In this document: positions 12,458 to 18,339 of the stretch, one piece after another
Numbering within the stretch: position 1 is the first letter of the stretch
How the letters are laid out: every line of letters starts with the position of its first letter
From: Oceanospirillaceae bacterium
Lineage (GTDB): Bacteria > Pseudomonadota > Gammaproteobacteria > Pseudomonadales > Balneatricaceae
NCBI GenBank assembly: GCA_029938085.1
Contig: JAPYOS010000002.1
Span: 62,001-126,000, forward strand
Direction of reading: 5' to 3'
DNA length: 64,000 nucleotides
The notes under the pieces: generated by a model
Databases searched by the model: none
Told to the model about the DNA's origin: nothing
What the model saw: the letters and a program-made list of their open reading frames with translations, nothing else
Position numbers and translations under genes: made by a program

Positions 12458-12533
12458 GTTCTATTATGACCGATAAGGCACAACAACAAGTGCAACCTTA
12501 TGCATAACCGATCATGAGTTTAGCGCGATCACC

Positions 12534-12777
12534 TTAGTCTTCGGGTAACGCTTCAAACTCTTGTTTTTTTGACTCCATTCACTGGTTCATTTTTTCTGGG
12601 CTTTGCATAAACTCACCCATCTTCTGCATGGCCGCTAGGTGATCTGGGTCTTGCGTCTTGCGTCTTGTGCATTTCCATACCGTGTTGCTTACTCAGTTCG
12701 GCTATTGCTTCAAAGGTGCTTGCCCGAAACTCCAGACTGCAGGCCCCACCAAATTGATTGCAAGTCATTGTTTTCAT
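12534..12777 (-). pseudogene. Broken small gene of the MKTMTC.LGGAC (DUF1059-like) type
   Basis: The minus strand starts MKTMTCNQFGGACSLEFRAS and continues through IAELSKQHGMEMHKTQD, then loses frame. A 7-base unit (CTTGCGT on the plus strand) is present twice in tandem at about 12652-12665. Removing one copy restores the frame into PDHLAAMQKMGEFMQSPEKM and on to ESKKQEFEALPED. A second lesion is an in-frame TGA where the family would be expected to have Trp (NQ*MESKKQEF). The repaired protein would have about 78 residues. It resembles small proteins annotated DUF1059, of unknown function. An AGAGG ribosome-binding site precedes the ATG. Clearly inactive. Confidence 0.8.
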
Positions 12778-12806
12778 GTACTTAAGCCTCTTTAGTTACT
12801 ATGTTC

Positions 12807-12816
12807 ATTTAACGCC
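12807..12816 (-). repeat. attC right-end half-site (GGCGTTAAAT) abutting brnA
   Basis: On the minus strand the brnA stop TGA is followed at once by GGCGTTAAAT. This matches the right end of integron attC sites (R' box GTTRRRY, here GTTAAAT). The rest of an attC site is absent, so it looks like the scar of a deleted site or the edge of the cassette array. Ten bases alone could occur by chance; the polarity agrees with the two fuller sites at 13.5 and 15.25 kb. Confidence 0.4.
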
Positions 12817-13089
12817 TCATACACCGGAAGCATGTATGCTGTCTGTATGTTTTGCTTTATTGGCAACTTCCGACTGCAGCCGCTCTACTAACCACACTTT
12901 AATGATGGATTGGCGAGTTACACCGATACGCGCAGCCTCTTTATCCAGAGAATCTACAACCCAAGCAGGGAAATCGACATTTATGCGCTTTTGCTTTTGA
13001 TTGACCCGGCGTACTGAGGCCAAATTAAGGTGATCAACTACGTCTTGGTTATTGTCATCAAATATTTTATCAAACTCTTTAGCTTGCAT
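12817..13089 (-). CDS. brnA: BrnA-type ribbon-helix-helix antitoxin
   Basis: A 90-residue protein with a CopG/BrnA C-terminal ribbon-helix-helix: strand region KQKRINVDFPAWVVDSLDKEAARIGVTRQSIIKVWLVERL (split here as the strand RINVDFP and helices after it). BrnA antitoxins neutralise BrnT and repress their own promoter. The gene lies downstream of the toxin gene and overlaps it by 11 bases, the toxin-first order known for brnTA. The C-terminal tail (EVANKAKHTDSIHASGV) is not conserved in the family and may result from truncation at the attC scar. Confidence 0.88.
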   Translation of the reverse strand: MQAKEFDKIFDDNNQDVVDHLNLASVRRVNQKQKRINVDFPAWVVDSLDKEAARIGVTRQSIIKVWLVERLQSEVANKAKHTDSIHASGV

Positions 13090-13342
13090 AAATCTCCACC
13101 TCTTTATCTCGTGATCGCCTAACCGAAATTAACCTTACTACCTCATTCCGATAAGTAACAACAGCAGACCAGTGCTTATTATCAATAATACCTACAACAA
13201 TAAACCTAGATTCATTTTCTGAAATTGCTTCAACCTCAACGGCCTCAGGATCATTCCAAAGAGCCTGTGCATTCAGAAAGTCTATACCATGTTTTTTAAG
13301 GTTAGCTACGCTTTTAGCTGGGTCGTACTCAAATATGGTCAT
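13079..13342 (-). CDS. brnT: BrnT-type ribonuclease toxin
   Basis: An 87-residue BrnT (DUF497) toxin, a RelE-fold ribonuclease that stops translation. The family signatures are visible: FEYDPAKSVANLKKHGIDFLNAQ at the N terminus, the ERF-like strand ESRFIVVG and the C-terminal arginine motif VRLISVRRSRDKEVEIY. It is first in the pair and overlaps brnA. Intact length and motifs suggest it is active. Such pairs are common in integron cassettes, where they stabilise arrays. Confidence 0.9.
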   Translation of the reverse strand: MTIFEYDPAKSVANLKKHGIDFLNAQALWNDPEAVEVEAISENESRFIVVGIIDNKHWSAVVTYRNEVVRLISVRRSRDKEVEIYAS

Positions 13343-13344
13343 GA

Positions 13345-13357
13345 GTATAAAGTATAC
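13345..13357. promoter_or_regulatory. Dyad GTATA-AAG-TATAC at the brnT promoter
   Basis: A perfect 5+5 dyad lies two bases upstream of the brnT start codon and overlaps a TATACT word that could be the -10 box on the minus strand. This is the expected place for the BrnA (or BrnT-BrnA) autorepressor to bind. The dyad is seen; its function is inferred. Confidence 0.4.
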
Positions 13358-13369
13358 CTATATTACTCA

Positions 13370-13489
13370 AAGCACAACCTTTCGGGGTTATGGTCAAAAC
13401 GCCTATCTCAAAAAGATCGTCTTATCTATAAATTTGACGATGAACACATTTACATTTTTGCTATTGGCGGTCACTACGACCAGCCCTAA
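13370..13489 (+). pseudogene. C-terminal remnant of a YoeB/Txe-type toxin
   Basis: The plus-strand frame reads KHNLSGLWSKRLSQKDRLIY and then KFDDEHIYIFAIGGHYDQP before TAA. This closely follows the last 35 residues of E. coli YoeB (KHNLSGFWSRRITEEHRLVY...YHY), including the conserved W-S-R-R/K and HY end. The first half of the toxin and any YefM antitoxin are missing; the upstream in-frame codons overlap the brnT gene on the other strand. The stop codon lies inside the adjoining attC-like site. It is a fragment left by rearrangement of the array. Confidence 0.75.
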
Positions 13490-13548
13490 CGCCGCGCTTT
13501 GTGGCGAACTGCGTAGCAGTTTGTCCAATGCAACAGCGCCTTGTTATG
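13483..13548 (-). repeat. attC-like integron recombination site 1
   Basis: Read on the minus strand this 66-base element starts CATAACAAGGCGCTG, ends GCGCGGCGTTAGGGC and is an imperfect palindrome with a perfect AACTGC-TAC-GCAGTT centre. The TAACAA...GGCGTTAG ends, about 60-base length and single-strand folding pattern are those of integron attC sites. It begins 14 bases after the stop of the ATPase gene, exactly where a cassette's attC should be. R'/R'' boxes each deviate from the consensus at one position. Confidence 0.75.
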
Positions 13549-13562
13549 TTCAGCTATGTACA

Positions 13563-15173
13563 TTACTGGGCCTGAATCTCAGGAAGTAACTCTTGAATTG
13601 TTGATGTGAGACTCGGAACACTTCCATTTCTTAGAGCTCTGGTAAGCCAGTTTTCAAAATTTTGACGTCGACAACTTTTTAAGTGCGTAGCAGCTAACGC
13701 AATCATTCCCTTGTTGTCATAATTTTTTAGAAGGACAGGTAAATCTCTATTCTCAATTGCTGCTACTATCCTGCTTCTTGACTCTTCCGCAATAGCATCA
13801 ATATTTAGGGCGTCAGTTTCTTGCATATATTTTCCCTTTAATTCTGAAATATTCCCTGCATCACTTAAATCAATTTTCTTAAGTGTACGATCGATGCGTC
13901 TTCTACAATACCTAACCACAACGTCTTCGATGGCCCTTTCCGAATTAAGCGTTTGAAAAATAGACTCTGAAAGCCCTGTTAGCTTTGCGTCTAACTCACT
14001 TCCTGAATAGCCCTCACTTTCAGCTATCGCCTGACTAACGTTAGGCATAAGTATTATGTTTTCAATCTCTGATACGGGCAATGTGACAATACCTAGCCTA
14101 GCAAGGTATTCAATGTCTTCTGTGCAGTAATCATCTGCATCAACTATCCCGGAACATGTCACTCTTGTTAGATTTTCATTTCGCCTCATTGTGACTACAG
14201 AATGAATTACTTGCTCGCAGGAACCTTTTGGTATAATTGTCCAATTTGTAAAGCAGCTTCTGTATATTGCAATGTCTAAACTAGTATTTGAACCCTCGAC
14301 AAATAAGATAGGTTTTCGGCTACCGAGAATGATCGTAGTTAATTCTTCGTCAAATCCAGATTCTTCTGGCACCCTTTCAATAGTCCAATAAGGCTTAGCG
14401 TTGTATTCTCGCAATACGTACTTTTCCGCGACACGAGAGGATGCAAATTCGAGATCATGGGTTATAAATACAAAAGCACAGTCAGGGCGCACAGCCTCAA
14501 TTTCATCCCAAAGCCTAGACATTATAGAGGGATGTATATGTAGTTCTGGTTCATCAAAAATAATAAGGGAATCTTCAGCTGCTACTAGTGTTTGACCAAG
14601 CATATAAAAAACCGCTCTCTCCCCGTCACTCATTTCGCTACCAGAATATCGCTCCAAATCACCAGTTACAGAAACTTGAATATCATCACCTGATACGTGT
14701 AGTTTCCGGTGGGGAAGAAGCTGTTCCCAAATATTTATTAGAATTTCAAACTTTGTTGGTTCAGCCGGGCCATTCTCGCCGCTACGAACTTTCTTATGCG
14801 TTTCCAGCGACTTGTTAGATTGCTCTGCGAATAAAGCCTGGACCAGAAAATCAAAGTCATTTAGTAGTGCAACCGACCCTTTGCTTCCCCAACGATGGCC
14901 TAGCCTATGGTCGGCGCCAGCAGCCTCATTTGCATAACCGGTTCGTAGTCCAAGTAAGGCTTCAGTCTCATTGATTTTTGGAACAGAAGGGTTTAGAGAA
15001 AGTGCTCTATGTGCAGATATGCGATGGGCATTTAAACTTAGAGTGTTTTCTATGTGCGTTGCTAATCTTGTTTTACCTGTTCCATTAGCACCTACAAAAA
15101 CAACAGATGAGCCTGCTTCAATTCTTATTTCTTCGCGGTCGTTTTGCGTTGGTACATTAATCGTGAACGTCAT
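13563..15173 (-). CDS. Single-gene ABC-type ATPase + DUF4435 (TOPRIM) protein, resembling merged PARIS (AriA-AriB)
   Basis: The 536-residue protein joins two modules. Residues 1-255 form an ABC/SMC-like ATPase: Walker A GANGTGKT (28-35), signature-like SGSEMSDGE (177-185), Walker B LIIFDEPELHIHP (203-215) and switch His in FITHD (236-240). Residues about 285-536 match DUF4435, a TOPRIM-like nuclease: acidic motif ILFVEGSN (Glu293), DxD motif GIVDADD (Asp345/Asp347) and the VSEIENIIL segment. In the PARIS anti-phage system AriA (ATPase) and AriB (DUF4435) are separate or fused; activation frees AriB to cut host tRNA. Architecture therefore suggests a merged PARIS-like defence gene. It sits alone between two attC-like sites and is visibly more AT-rich than the core genes. 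An OLD-like nuclease of other function remains possible. Confidence 0.72.
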   Translation of the reverse strand: MTFTINVPTQNDREEIRIEAGSSVVFVGANGTGKTRLATHIENTLSLNAHRISAHRALSLNPSVPKINETEALLGLRTGYANEAAGADHRLGHRWGSKGSVALLNDFDFLVQALFAEQSNKSLETHKKVRSGENGPAEPTKFEILINIWEQLLPHRKLHVSGDDIQVSVTGDLERYSGSEMSDGERAVFYMLGQTLVAAEDSLIIFDEPELHIHPSIMSRLWDEIEAVRPDCAFVFITHDLEFASSRVAEKYVLREYNAKPYWTIERVPEESGFDEELTTIILGSRKPILFVEGSNTSLDIAIYRSCFTNWTIIPKGSCEQVIHSVVTMRRNENLTRVTCSGIVDADDYCTEDIEYLARLGIVTLPVSEIENIILMPNVSQAIAESEGYSGSELDAKLTGLSESIFQTLNSERAIEDVVVRYCRRRIDRTLKKIDLSDAGNISELKGKYMQETDALNIDAIAEESRSRIVAAIENRDLPVLLKNYDNKGMIALAATHLKSCRRQNFENWLTRALRNGSVPSLTSTIQELLPEIQAQ

Positions 15174-15203
15174 TTCATAACTCCTTCTATTACTTTCTTA
15201 ATC

Positions 15204-15302
15204 ACATAACGCCACAATAAGCGGCTAAGTAATTGTTGGCTAAAATGTGAAGCGAAGCGGAACCGAGCCAACTGTTGCGTGTCCGTTTAATTGCCTTGTC
15301 AG
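15204..15302 (-). repeat. attC-like integron recombination site 2
   Basis: On the minus strand it runs from CTGACAAGGCAATTAAACGG to GCCGCTTATTGTGGCGTTATG, about 98 bases. Inner arms AGTTGGCT/AGCCAAC pair perfectly around a variable centre, and outer arms TAAACGG/CCGCTTA pair with one mismatch, the usual attC fold with spaced arms. The TGA stop of the DUF6680 gene overlaps its left box. The polarity is the same as site 1. Together the two sites bracket the ATPase cassette. Confidence 0.78.
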
Positions 15303-15811
15303 CTTTGCTCTGGCCAATTAGTGATGTTCATTGGCACACCACGTTTATCCTCTAGTATTTGTAGAATACCTTCACGAATTTTTGCTTGCTGTGCATCAAT
15401 ATTGCCATGCACCATAGGTGAGTATGATGAGTTTTTAATGTGGGTTTTATCAAAGTCGTAATCCAAAACCAACGCCATTTTATAAAGTAGTTCAACGAGC
15501 AACTCGACACGTTTTGTACCCCATTGCTCACCAGTAATAGTTTTATCGCCGAGTAAATCTAGGTATTGCTTCCAAGCCTCAATAACCGCCTTTTCTTTCG
15601 GTTGTGCTAGCTCAAACTCTAAATCAATGCGGTTAAGTGTCATAACGTGATCCCATGATGTAGCATAAGATCGAGTTGCCATTAGAGTTTTAAATATATC
15701 TAATTTGCGTTGACGCTTTTCCTTTTTGGCATCCAAATATTTAGTTAACTGCACTGCAACAATAGGCCCCAAAAATACAGCTAAAATCATTACCCAATCT
15801 GAAATAGTCAA
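15299..15811 (-). CDS. DUF6680-like membrane-anchored protein (integron cassette)
   Basis: A 170-residue protein of unknown function resembling the DUF6680 family. It opens with one membrane segment (about residues 4-22, WVMILAVFLGPIVAVQL), then a basic stretch (KKEKRQRKLDIFKTLMATR) and a helical cytoplasmic domain with HVMTLNRIDLEFE and VIEAWKQYLDLL. Translation probably begins at TTG, six bases after GGAGAG; no ATG is suitably placed. The stop codon overlaps attC-like site 2, so the gene plus site form one cassette. Its function is not known. Confidence 0.7.
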   Translation of the reverse strand: MTISDWVMILAVFLGPIVAVQLTKYLDAKKEKRQRKLDIFKTLMATRSYATSWDHVMTLNRIDLEFELAQPKEKAVIEAWKQYLDLLGDKTITGEQWGTKRVELLVELLYKMALVLDYDFDKTHIKNSSYSPMVHGNIDAQQAKIREGILQILEDKRGVPMNITNWPEQS

Positions 15812-15836: not shown

Positions 15837-15873
15837 AGCTAACAGCCCATTTATGAGGCCCAAGGCCTCATAA
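15837..15873. repeat. Cassette-start GTTAGC motif and perfect hairpin
   Basis: On the minus strand GGGCTGTTAGC (15837-15847) resembles the right end of an attC or attI core (GTTAGCT) and would be the 5' edge of the DUF6680 cassette. Next to it a perfect 10-base palindrome TTATGAGGCC-CAA-GGCCTCATAA spans 15851-15873. It may be part of a degenerate recombination site or a terminator without a T-run. Interpretation is tentative. Confidence 0.35.
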
Positions 15874-15973
15874 TAATTATTAGAGAGCGGCACTTCTAAT
15901 AAACATTTGCTCGCCTTGCCACTCTCAACATACTGAAAAGTATAGGAGTTTATTTCTGAATTTCCAGCAGGCG

Positions 15974-15998
15974 AAAAAAAAGAGCGCTGAGCGCTCCT
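15974..15998 (-). terminator. Rho-independent terminator of trpREG
   Basis: On the minus strand GAGCGC-TCA-GCGCTC is followed by eight T residues, 35 bases after the trpG stop. It is a textbook terminator and marks the end of the trp transcript before the cassette array. Confidence 0.85.
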
Positions 15999-16031
15999 TA
16001 ATTTTAACAACAGGCTTTGCTGTACAGGGGG

Positions 16032-16667
16032 CTAAGAACCCAGTAAAAAGTTCTCCATCAGCTCTTTGCCGCCTTCGGTCGCAAAGGATTCTGGGTGAAA
16101 CTGGATGCCCTGAATAGGGTATTGTTTATGTTTAACACCCATAATTTCATAGCTGTCTGCTCCAAACTCGCCCACTACTGCGGTGAGCTGTAGGCAGTCT
16201 GGGATGGACTCTGCTTCTGCCATCAAAGAGTGGTATCGCATCACTTCTAATTGGTCGGGGATGTCTTTAAATACGCCGCTGCCATCGTGGCTGATGGGGC
16301 TGACTTTGCCGTGCATTGGCAAGTGCGCCTTAACCACCTTGCCACCAAAACAATGCACTATGCCCTGCATGCCTAGGCACACGCCTAGTAACGGGATCTT
16401 TGGGCCTAGCTCGGTGATCACTTGGGCACACACGCCAAAATAGCTTTGGTCGTCTGGCGAGCCAGGGCCTGGGGAGATGATAATACGGTCGGTTTGCGCG
16501 GCCTCTATATCTGCCACCGTAACTTGATCGTTGCGGGCGACAATCACTTCAAAATCACCTATTTGGCCTCTGAGCTTAGCCGTTGATAAAACCTCACCAA
16601 TATATTGGTAGAGGTTATAGGTAAATGAGTCATAGTTGTCGACTAGGTAAACAGTAAACTTGCTCAT
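16032..16667 (-). CDS. trpG: Anthranilate synthase component II (glutamine amidotransferase)
   Basis: TrpG hydrolyses glutamine to supply ammonia to TrpE in the first step of tryptophan synthesis. The 211-residue protein has the class-I amidotransferase triad: nucleophile Cys in LLGVCLGMQGI (about residue 97) and His/Glu in GIQFHPESFAT (about 192-194), with the oxyanion loop SPGPGSPDD near 65. Its ATG overlaps the trpE stop by four bases. No trpD or trpC follows; the operon ends here with a terminator. Confidence 0.93.
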   Translation of the reverse strand: MSKFTVYLVDNYDSFTYNLYQYIGEVLSTAKLRGQIGDFEVIVARNDQVTVADIEAAQTDRIIISPGPGSPDDQSYFGVCAQVITELGPKIPLLGVCLGMQGIVHCFGGKVVKAHLPMHGKVSPISHDGSGVFKDIPDQLEVMRYHSLMAEAESIPDCLQLTAVVGEFGADSYEIMGVKHKQYPIQGIQFHPESFATEGGKELMENFLLGS

Positions 16668-18055
16668 GCTTTAGCCTCCATAAATTGCTCTAACACTTTG
16701 AGAGTGCCGGCAAATTTACGTTGAATTTCTTGATACTCATCGTCTGGATTGGAGTCGTAAACATTGCCACCGCAGGTTTGTACGTAAGCTTTTGATCCGT
16801 TAGCAAACACCGTGCGAATGGGAATAGCAAAGGTACAATCGCCATTAAAACCAAAGTGGCCTACCGCGCCGCCGTATGGTCCACGTCCATCTAGCTCCAG
16901 ATCATCGATAATTTTCATGGCTTCGATTTTTGGCGCGCCGGTTAAGGTGCCTGCAGGGAAGTTGCTGGCTAAAGCAGAGAACATGTCTTCATTTTCGGCC
17001 ATGATGCCCACGATCTCACTGGAAATATGTTGCACATGGCTAAACCGCTTAATGTCCATCAAACTACGCACTTTTACGGTGCCAAAGCGTGCTACACGGC
17101 CAATGTCGTTGCGGTGCAGGTCCACAATCATATTGTGTTCGGCAATTTCTTTAGGGTCATTCAGCAAGGTACGCGCTAGGGCTGTGTCTTCTTCTGGCGT
17201 GGCGCCACGTTTGGTAGTGCCGGCTAACGGGTAGGTTTCCATCTCGCCTTGGCGCAAACGAAACAATAGCTCTGGGCTTGCGCCGATGACCTTTTGCTCG
17301 CCAAATTTAATGTAATACATTTGTGGCGACGGGTTAATAACGCGCAACTGTTCGTATAAATTGATACTTTCGCCGTGCATGTCGAAGCGGTATTTGAAGC
17401 CCACTTCGCATTGGAAAATTTTACCTTCTACGATGTCGCCTTTCACCTTTTTAACGGCCGCCGCATGTTGTTCACGGTTCATGTCTTCGCCTTGCGGCAC
17501 CACAGTTAGGCCGCCAATATTAGGCATAGGCTGGCTGATAATGGTTTCAACCAAACCAATACGATTTTCTTCGTAATGGAAATAGATCAACTCGCCTGTC
17601 ATTTTGTCGTAAATGAGGCCGTCTTTGTACAAGCCAAACTTAAACGCATCAAATGCGTCGCTGGCCGTTAGGCTTAAGCTGGGTTCAAAGTAGTTCATGG
17701 CATCGTAGCCAATATAACCCGTTAAACCACCGGCATAGCGGCGGCTAATAATGTTTTGTGGCACGATTTCGCGCAACAAATAGTATGGGTTTTCGCTCTC
17801 GTAAGACTGACAATTGCCTTGCCTGTCGGTAATGTGCAGTTGATTGCCATTAGCCCAAAAAATTTGCTCTGGATCGAAACCAATAAGCGAATAACGCGAG
17901 ATATGGCTGTCTTCGCCGAGGGATTCGAGCATGTAGCAGGTATCGAATTTTTGCTCAATTTTTTTGAACAACTCAAAAAAGTCACAGCTAGACGTGACTG
18001 TGAGGTAGCTTGGTTTACGAGCCATGTTAATTTTATTGGGGCGTGCTTGAGTCAC
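16664..18055 (-). CDS. trpE: Anthranilate synthase component I
   Basis: TrpE converts chorismate plus ammonia to anthranilate. The product (453-463 residues) carries the chorismate-binding fold with GASPELLFRL, YPLAGTTKRG, EIAEHNMIVDLHRNDIGRVA, FPAGTLTGAPKIEAM and the end motif YVQTCGGNVYDSNPDDEYQE. It is shorter than most proteobacterial TrpE (about 500) and the FKYRF/QMYYIKFGEQ segment is unusual, suggesting a divergent lineage. Start choice: GTG at 18055 overlaps the trpR stop as GTGA; an ATG at 18025 (MARKPSYLTV) is the alternative but has no ribosome-binding site. Feedback inhibition by tryptophan is likely (L-E-S-x-x motif LESLGEDSHISRYS). Confidence 0.92.
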   Translation of the reverse strand: MTQARPNKINMARKPSYLTVTSSCDFFELFKKIEQKFDTCYMLESLGEDSHISRYSLIGFDPEQIFWANGNQLHITDRQGNCQSYESENPYYLLREIVPQNIISRRYAGGLTGYIGYDAMNYFEPSLSLTASDAFDAFKFGLYKDGLIYDKMTGELIYFHYEENRIGLVETIISQPMPNIGGLTVVPQGEDMNREQHAAAVKKVKGDIVEGKIFQCEVGFKYRFDMHGESINLYEQLRVINPSPQMYYIKFGEQKVIGASPELLFRLRQGEMETYPLAGTTKRGATPEEDTALARTLLNDPKEIAEHNMIVDLHRNDIGRVARFGTVKVRSLMDIKRFSHVQHISSEIVGIMAENEDMFSALASNFPAGTLTGAPKIEAMKIIDDLELDGRGPYGGAVGHFGFNGDCTFAIPIRTVFANGSKAYVQTCGGNVYDSNPDDEYQEIQRKFAGTLKVLEQFMEAKA

Positions 18056-18339
18056 GATGGTGTAGTCTCTAATGGAGTCGGTGATGGGTGCCCGGCAAAT
18101 TTGCCAGCTTGAAGGGCCCGAGAGCCACGGGTTACGGTGGCAATGCCAACGCCCAGCTGTTGAGCGACTTGCCGTTGCGACAAACCTTGAGAAAGCAGCT
18201 CAAATATTTGTAAGCGATTGATCAGTTCCTGTTGTTCGTTAGGCGTTAACAGGCCCTCTAGGGCTGCAGTCATAGACTGAGCGTCGGTTTGCAGAAGCAA
18301 ATAGTCGGCGACGGGTGCAATGGCTTTGTTGTAGGGCAT
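18052..18339 (-). CDS. trpR: TrpR-family repressor heading the trp operon
   Basis: A 95-residue all-helical protein with the Trp repressor helix-turn-helix LSQRQVAQQLGVGIATVTRGS (core LSQ..VA..LGVGIATVTRG) and the preceding LLTPNEQQELINRLQIFELL helices. TrpR binds operator DNA when charged with L-tryptophan. Here the gene is first in a trpR-trpE-trpG operon, overlapping trpE by four bases, so the repressor would control itself and the synthase together. In E. coli trpR is a separate locus. Confidence 0.88.
   Translation of the reverse strand: MPYNKAIAPVADYLLLQTDAQSMTAALEGLLTPNEQQELINRLQIFELLSQGLSQRQVAQQLGVGIATVTRGSRALQAGKFAGHPSPTPLETTPS

Follow-up and report, generated by a model that had tools for sequence, protein, structure and literature searches.

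Organization of the ariAB locus

The window, a 64,000-nucleotide stretch of a contig from an Oceanospirillaceae bacterium, carries a small minus-strand array next to trpG (Table 1). Read in the direction of the array, the order is an attI-like stub, a DUF6680 gene, the gene studied here (ariAB) and the toxin–antitoxin pair brnT-brnA. ariAB is a single ORF encoding 536 uninterrupted amino acids, and separate ariA and ariB genes are absent at the locus. Its product consists of an ABC ATPase half (residues 1 to ~270) followed by a DUF4435/TOPRIM-like half (~280–536).

Table 1. Coordinates of the array features, listed from the trpG side.
Feature	Position	Strand	Basis or remarks
attI relic with truncated DNA from upstream of intI; no intI, trpG follows	15838..16024	-	Similarity to same-genus integrase loci
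First cassette, DUF6680 protein, TTG start in ORF list	15299..15811	-	PF20385, 190.6 bits
attC1, site of the preceding DUF6680 cassette	15204..15304	-	R' GTTATGT; R'' degenerate AGCTGAC, overlaps DUF6680 stop
Predicted excisable ariAB cassette, 1,720 bp	13490..15209	-	Bounded by crossover at G^TT in attC1 and in attC2
ariAB-type gene, fused ABC ATPase and DUF4435/TOPRIM-like	13563..15173	-	ORF, Pfam, PADLOC, alignment
attC2, site of the ariAB cassette	13484..13549	-	R'' ACATAAC, R' GTTAGGG; begins +14 after stop codon
BrnT toxin gene, next in array	13079..13342	-	PF04365, 84.7 bits
BrnA antitoxin gene	12817..13089	-	NF047399, 109.8 bits
Core-like site GTTAAAT, far edge of variable segment; homology with G011 resumes	12807..12813	-	Comparison with G011

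The ariAB product resembles fused PARIS proteins

Both domains were recovered by Pfam above the curated cut-off of 27 bits, AAA_21 at 47.9 bits and DUF4435 at 30.1 bits in the full protein (32.4 bits when the C half was searched alone, where it was the sole match above cut-off). The combination by which fused PARIS is recognized, AAA_21 or AAA_15 together with DUF4435 in one protein, is therefore present, as the sequence-only reading had proposed. The PADLOC AriAB profile (PDLC02982) aligned residues 2–534 to profile positions 26–568 of 570 with 480.6 bits (E 1.6e-144). Among the best 25 of 82 PADLOC matches, a second AriAB model scored 60.4 bits and AriA 58.6 bits, and all non-Ari models remained below 40 bits (mad3 39.8, PtuA 38.9, ATPase-Toprim_I-B 32.4). 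When searched separately, the N and C halves each matched AriAB (4.2e-83 and 1.4e-55, respectively), and the isolated N half also matched AriA (E 6.1e-17). The suggested profile check thus succeeded for DUF4435 and AriA, but not for AriB, since the AriB-only PADLOC profiles gave no match to the C half at E up to 1.

The protein contains GANGTGKT at residues 28–35, MSDGER at 181–186, D207/E208, H239 and E293/D345/D347; we take GANGTGKT to be Walker A, MSDGER the ABC signature, D207/E208 part of Walker B and E293/D345/D347 the acidic residues of a TOPRIM site. In an alignment of 12 sequences (the window protein plus 11 relatives, of which ten come from viral contigs and the other from Colwellia), G28, G33, K34, S182–R186, D207, E208 and H239 in the ATPase half and E293, D345, D347 and E371 in the C half were invariant in all 12, window included, so that the complete motif set read earlier from the single sequence extends across its relatives. 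Omitted from the alignments were L025 (Rhizobium) and L076, which have a stop inside the stretch used, and the short matches L083–L087; L019–L023 and L060–L063 were not aligned. The profile matches, with AriAB at 480.6 bits and no listed ATPase-Toprim model above 32.4, support the assignment of the ariAB product as a fused AriA/AriB-type (PARIS) protein and uphold the likeness to merged PARIS.

Such fusions are known. Passages of Rousset et al. 2022 (PMC9122126) report PARIS in 5.2% of genomes, encoded by two genes or fused into one, with fusion profiles built from AAA_15/AAA_21 plus DUF4435 proteins; an excerpt of PMC12409363 notes that AriA and AriB are occasionally fused, and in the available text of PMC12874462 the name PARIS_II_merge is used once for merged PARIS, in a prophage. 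On these sources the window protein is a member of an already known fusion type, and its single-gene form is not new, as single-gene PARIS was already counted in the passages of PMC9122126. The gene type is already catalogued; what the locus usefully adds is a further example, set in an integron. With the fused PARIS of that study and of PADLOC (AriAB, PDLC02982) the window protein shares the same two domains in one polypeptide and a near full-length profile match; it differs in lying in an integron cassette, whereas the word integron is absent from the PMC9122126 text available. Among the literature matches listed we identified no report of PARIS in integrons, and an earlier one may exist. 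With two-gene PARIS, as described in the PMC12409363 excerpt, the fusion shares an ABC ATPase sensor and a TOPRIM nuclease. AriA has 464 amino acids, however, whereas the ATPase half of the fusion has only ~270.

Predicted structure and fold comparison

An AlphaFold2 model of the ariAB protein built from the 12 sequences had a mean pLDDT of 85.7 and a pTM of 0.77. In this model strand 289–293 terminates at E293, and D345 directly follows strand 340–344. Acidic residues placed in this manner are the layout expected of a TOPRIM site. The linker region, residues 261–300, is predicted to be ordered (block means of 87–91), and the C half modelled alone reached a pLDDT of 88.5.

The suggested structural comparison with AriA–AriB recovered neither protein among the best 50 PDB matches. 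The whole model gave 227 PDB fold matches at E up to 0.001, and the best 50, which were considered, comprised mostly retron/Septu PtuA, SMC/cohesin/Rad50/RecN heads and ABC transporters, with one GajA and no AriA. For the C half nothing was found at E <0.079 and AriB was not among the best 50 of 865 matches; those listed were low-scoring Rossmann-like and other folds. Searching the PDB by sequence, the 12-sequence profile reached the AriA chains 8v45 and 8ux9 at E 1.4e-6 over residues 181–248 only, with several PtuA and ABC chains ranking ahead. Only weak PtuA and ABC chains were found by phmmer with the single protein and again by a 4-sequence profile, a C-half profile returned nothing below E 0.17 and no AriB, and the C half of a relative likewise found no AriB. 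As AriA and AriB are absent among the best 50 fold matches, it is the sequence profiles and not the fold that place the protein in PARIS. The TOPRIM identity of the C half, which draws on sequence profiles and residue placement, is among the weaker parts of the assignment.

attC sites flanking ariAB

A first simple pattern scan of the window for attC sites gave no matches, and a fold-based scan detected attC2 as the only site there and missed attC1. In attC sites, recombination takes place on the bottom strand. The attC2 bottom strand folded at −14.2 kcal/mol (z −2.2), equalled by 5 of 200 shuffles, and the other strand was unremarkable (z −0.65, 46 of 200 shuffles). Of the 390 same-order genomes searched, 44 carry DNA similar to attC2, counting the genome of the window itself, with several matches spanning only 19–46 bases. 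Fourteen of the long matches were taken for alignment; they align core to core, from the TAAC to the GTT core, and the sequence outside diverges. At several related sites R' is followed by a ribosome-site-like stretch and a start codon, which gives attC2 the direction of ariAB. Judged by this conservation, attC2 belongs to a family of attC sites that other genomes of the order share. A plasmid search with attC2 gave no match.

The fold of attC1 was no better than that of shuffles (z +0.6), and its recognition comes from sequence: it shares 82.5% identity, across 103 bp, with an attC from the G402 integron (same genus) and ~85% with a site in a Pseudoalteromonas xiamenensis array, and seven such attC sites align with it.

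On the opposite strand a C-terminal fragment of a YoeB-like toxin gene (13289–13489, plus strand, 33.4 bits) runs antisense to the array and has its stop inside attC2. Assigning attC2 to this fragment was rejected, as several of the related sites have start codons after R' in the ariAB direction and the bottom strand folds better.

Integron crossover occurs at G^TT of the attC core site. Such crossover at attC1 and attC2, which are both oriented with the ariAB gene, is predicted to release 1,720 bp in which ariAB is the only large gene. The arrangement of a cassette, an ORF followed by a same-direction attC and preceded by another, was found, with attC1 identified by sequence, not by fold. The earlier claim of two attC-like flanks therefore holds, for attC2 by sequence and bottom-strand fold and for attC1 by sequence only. 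Of the further claim, that the whole defence would move as one mobile cassette, the single cassette between two attC-type sites stands, but it is at most potentially mobile, given that the genome search revealed no integron integrase and the local attI-like DNA lacks intI.

Remains of an integron platform beside trpG

The region at 15840–16024 resembles DNA adjacent to intI in genomes of the same genus (G001, 68.9 bits; G402, 51.8 and 47.3; G005, 37.4) as well as DNA beside the broken intI of G009 (40.1 bits), compared with 33.7 bits for the best of 100 mononucleotide shuffles; G012, one of the five same-genus integrase loci searched, showed no similarity. The alignment retains the core TAACAG, a hairpin region and the A-rich stretch that precedes intI. 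Near intI lie CTGTATAAATAACCAG in G001 and CTGTATGAATAACCAG in G402, which resemble an SOS box, and it is at this point that the window diverges from both genomes and runs into trpG. Integron integrases above cut-off occurred in 4 of the 15 genomes of the genus, the window's own counted among the 15. The own genome (95.6% complete) had no TIGR02249 match above 265 bits; the best reached 78.4 bits, and its matches were split, without the part around model positions 197–236, and look XerC/XerD-like. A tblastn search of the window with the G402 integrase revealed no intI remnant (best E 1.4). We read the locus as a decayed integron with an attI-like stub and cassettes and without intI, not mobile by itself, since attI- and intI-upstream-like DNA remains and no integron integrase was found in the genome. 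In the available text of PMC12444791, CALINs are likewise attC arrays without an integrase; the window additionally keeps an attI-like stub and intI upstream DNA. The integrase gene of the G009 locus (L068, on G009:C1) is broken into two separate matches, perhaps a second case of platform decay.

Comparison with the same-genus genome G011 places boundaries on the array. G011 shares both flanks with the window (91% over 15840–18167 and 87% over 12524–12815), including the attI-like stub beside trpG, and carries other DNA between them, the switch falling at a core-like GTT at both edges. Eleven other same-genus trpG loci were compared (L008–L018), of which that of G011 (L008) has the array site. 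At L010, L012, L016 and L017 trpG lies ~25–45 bases from an mmsB-like gene with no array; at L018 the two genes are close with some other DNA, L009 contains N at this position, and L011 and L013–L015 had no mmsB-like match adjoining trpG.

Among the neighbours, brnT-brnA (12817–13342, minus strand) ends at a core-like site only, no full attC being recognized after brnA. The DUF6680 protein has relatives in 5 plasmid records, all but one from Vibrio. Beyond the array a DUF1059-like gene remnant (~12570–12779, minus strand), a 42-residue piece at 20.0 bits and just below the cut-off of 21.1, lies in DNA also present in G011.

Relatives of ariAB on other mobile elements

At E up to 1e-20, a protein search found ariAB in 6 of 390 genomes of the order and in 8 of 369 genomes of a class sample (own included in each), together with 54 plasmid and 2 phage records. 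Only 3 of the 17 ariAB loci scanned (window included) had attC-like sites within 300 bp; L069–L071, longer stretches of the L057–L059 genomes, were used only in this flank scan. On a Colwellia MAG contig (L006) a gene 78% identical to ariAB is followed by an attC at +11 past the stop codon, whose bottom strand folds with z −5.1 (0 of 200 shuffles). DNA similarity to the window stops a few bases beyond the gene, and this attC resembles attC1 (71%), not attC2. In Pseudoalteromonas piscicida (L049) an integron integrase (IntI, 460 bits) is followed by a run of attC-like sites, among which six fold at −17 to −30 kcal/mol, and then by a 32% identical ariAB homologue, which has a site upstream only and no attC within 300 bp after it. 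One AriB-only PADLOC profile matches this relative (E 6.3e-14).

Other relatives are a 72% identical gene in a viral contig (L072), near tail genes that we take to be P2-like and with no attC found nearby, and a 69% identical gene on a 5.8-kb mobilizable Psychrobacter plasmid. Relatives outside integrons measure about 515–545 amino acids, about as long as the window protein, and we therefore rejected an integron-specific shortening of the fusion. The integron, P2-like prophage and small mobilizable plasmid settings suggest one defence gene crossing several kinds of mobile element.

Insertion sequences and other genes also occur near such sites. A transposase gene, presumably IS110-type, lies a few hundred bases past the Colwellia attC (L006:5474–6742), and annotated IS110 genes are likewise near attC-like sites in L050. 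On an Aliivibrio salmonicida plasmid an attC 84.9% identical to that of the Colwellia ariAB (L052:4396–4821) lies ~2 kb from a predicted dfrA1 gene.

Identity, arrival and expression of the gene

We consider it probable that ariAB encodes a PARIS-type anti-phage protein in a single polypeptide and is itself one gene cassette of a decayed integron. Weighing against this reading are the poor fold of attC1, the small share of ariAB loci with attC-like sites nearby (3 of 17) and the missing similarity of the attI relic to the G012 locus. The AriAB label could instead come from a broad PADLOC model applied to a different ABC ATPase–TOPRIM defence protein (OLD, retron/Septu PtuA or another), with a possibly unrelated trigger and target, for instance DNA cleavage. 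The many PtuA chains and the GajA among the top fold matches, from which AriA is missing, the short ATPase half and the lack of an AriB-only match in the C half all point that way; the score gap between AriAB and mad3, PtuA or ATPase-Toprim_I-B, the recognition of each half by AriAB and DUF4435 as the only Pfam match above cut-off in the C half speak against it, and we judge a protein of this other kind unlikely, with an OLD or PtuA identity set aside on account of the far higher AriAB score. Far less credible still is that the repeats are unrelated dispersed palindromes rather than attC sites and that the gene was brought in otherwise, for example by a P2-like prophage. Here the L072 relative with its tail genes and the phage replication gene A homologue upstream on the Colwellia contig have to be set against the core sites, their direction, their alignment to attC sites beside intact integrases and the attI-like stub heading the array.

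A PARIS-type cassette may nevertheless be a silent passenger in a dead integron, having no promoter of its own and contributing no defence in its host. For integron cassettes, transcription is expected to start at a promoter within attI or close to it. Here intI is missing, attC1 is separated from the start codon by 30 bases only, and the region holds 8 promoter-like sites against a shuffle mean of 9.9, and 7 terminator-like sites against 3.6 in shuffles. One of these, on the minus strand at 15999–15979, is situated between trpG and the array and disfavours read-through from trp. The intact ORF with its motifs kept argues in the other direction, as does the attI-like sequence that remains, although the one minus-strand promoter-like match inside it (15966–15939) is at chance level. 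We regard silent carriage as somewhat doubtful, yet a good deal less so than either alternative above. Transcription of ariAB probably has to come from attI or its vicinity, and the gene may be weakly expressed or silent.

Proposed mechanism and implications

The window, as read, contains two fused domains with intact motifs, attC sites and an attI-like stub, and its integrase is missing; function is approached here through the two-gene system. In the texts excerpted from PMC12409363, PMC12707154 and PMC12593503, an AriA hexamer holds three AriB, binding of the trigger leads to release of AriB, and AriB cleaves tRNA-Lys, an activity lost in E26A. We propose E293 of the fusion as the counterpart of AriB E26. 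The ATPase half would form a sensor oligomer keeping the TOPRIM nuclease half inactive, and a phage-encoded trigger, which in two-gene PARIS is an anti-restriction protein such as Ocr, would alter this assembly. The TOPRIM halves would then act in place on host tRNA, most likely as a tethered pair, stopping translation. Both trigger and tRNA target we infer for the fusion from family membership alone. Two-gene PARIS, in the available descriptions, has separate chains, a 6:3 assembly and effector release, whereas the fusion is one chain to which neither feature applies as described: as the nuclease is part of the ATPase chain and the linker between them is predicted to be ordered, release and a 6:3 (2:1) stoichiometry would be impossible unless the chain were cut. 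Activation in place is proposed because an uncut fusion could not release its nuclease.

An integron integrase acting at G^TT would have captured the cassette; with that enzyme gone here, remobilization would depend on an integrase provided in trans. According to the available text of a review (PMC12409362), it is already published that integrons store compact defence genes, and systems of more than two genes are absent from them. The defence cassettes that this review describes from integrons of both chromosomes and mobile elements (Darracq et al. 2025; Kieffer et al. 2025) are likewise compact one-gene attC defences; the window differs from these in that its platform lacks intI and its fused protein is no shorter than non-integron relatives. 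Tentatively, single-chain PARIS may be mechanistically distinct, with one nuclease per ATPase and no release, and its one-gene format may have let integrases capture it in several marine gammaproteobacterial lineages.

The locus offers a clean case of a defence gene stranded after integrase loss: an attI-like stub remains, core sites mark the boundaries, and a sister genome has different content at this position. A working fusion could not release its AriB-like half unless cut, so that ariAB and its relatives would provide a direct test of the need for release. If the proposal is true, integrons shuffle PARIS as they shuffle resistance genes.
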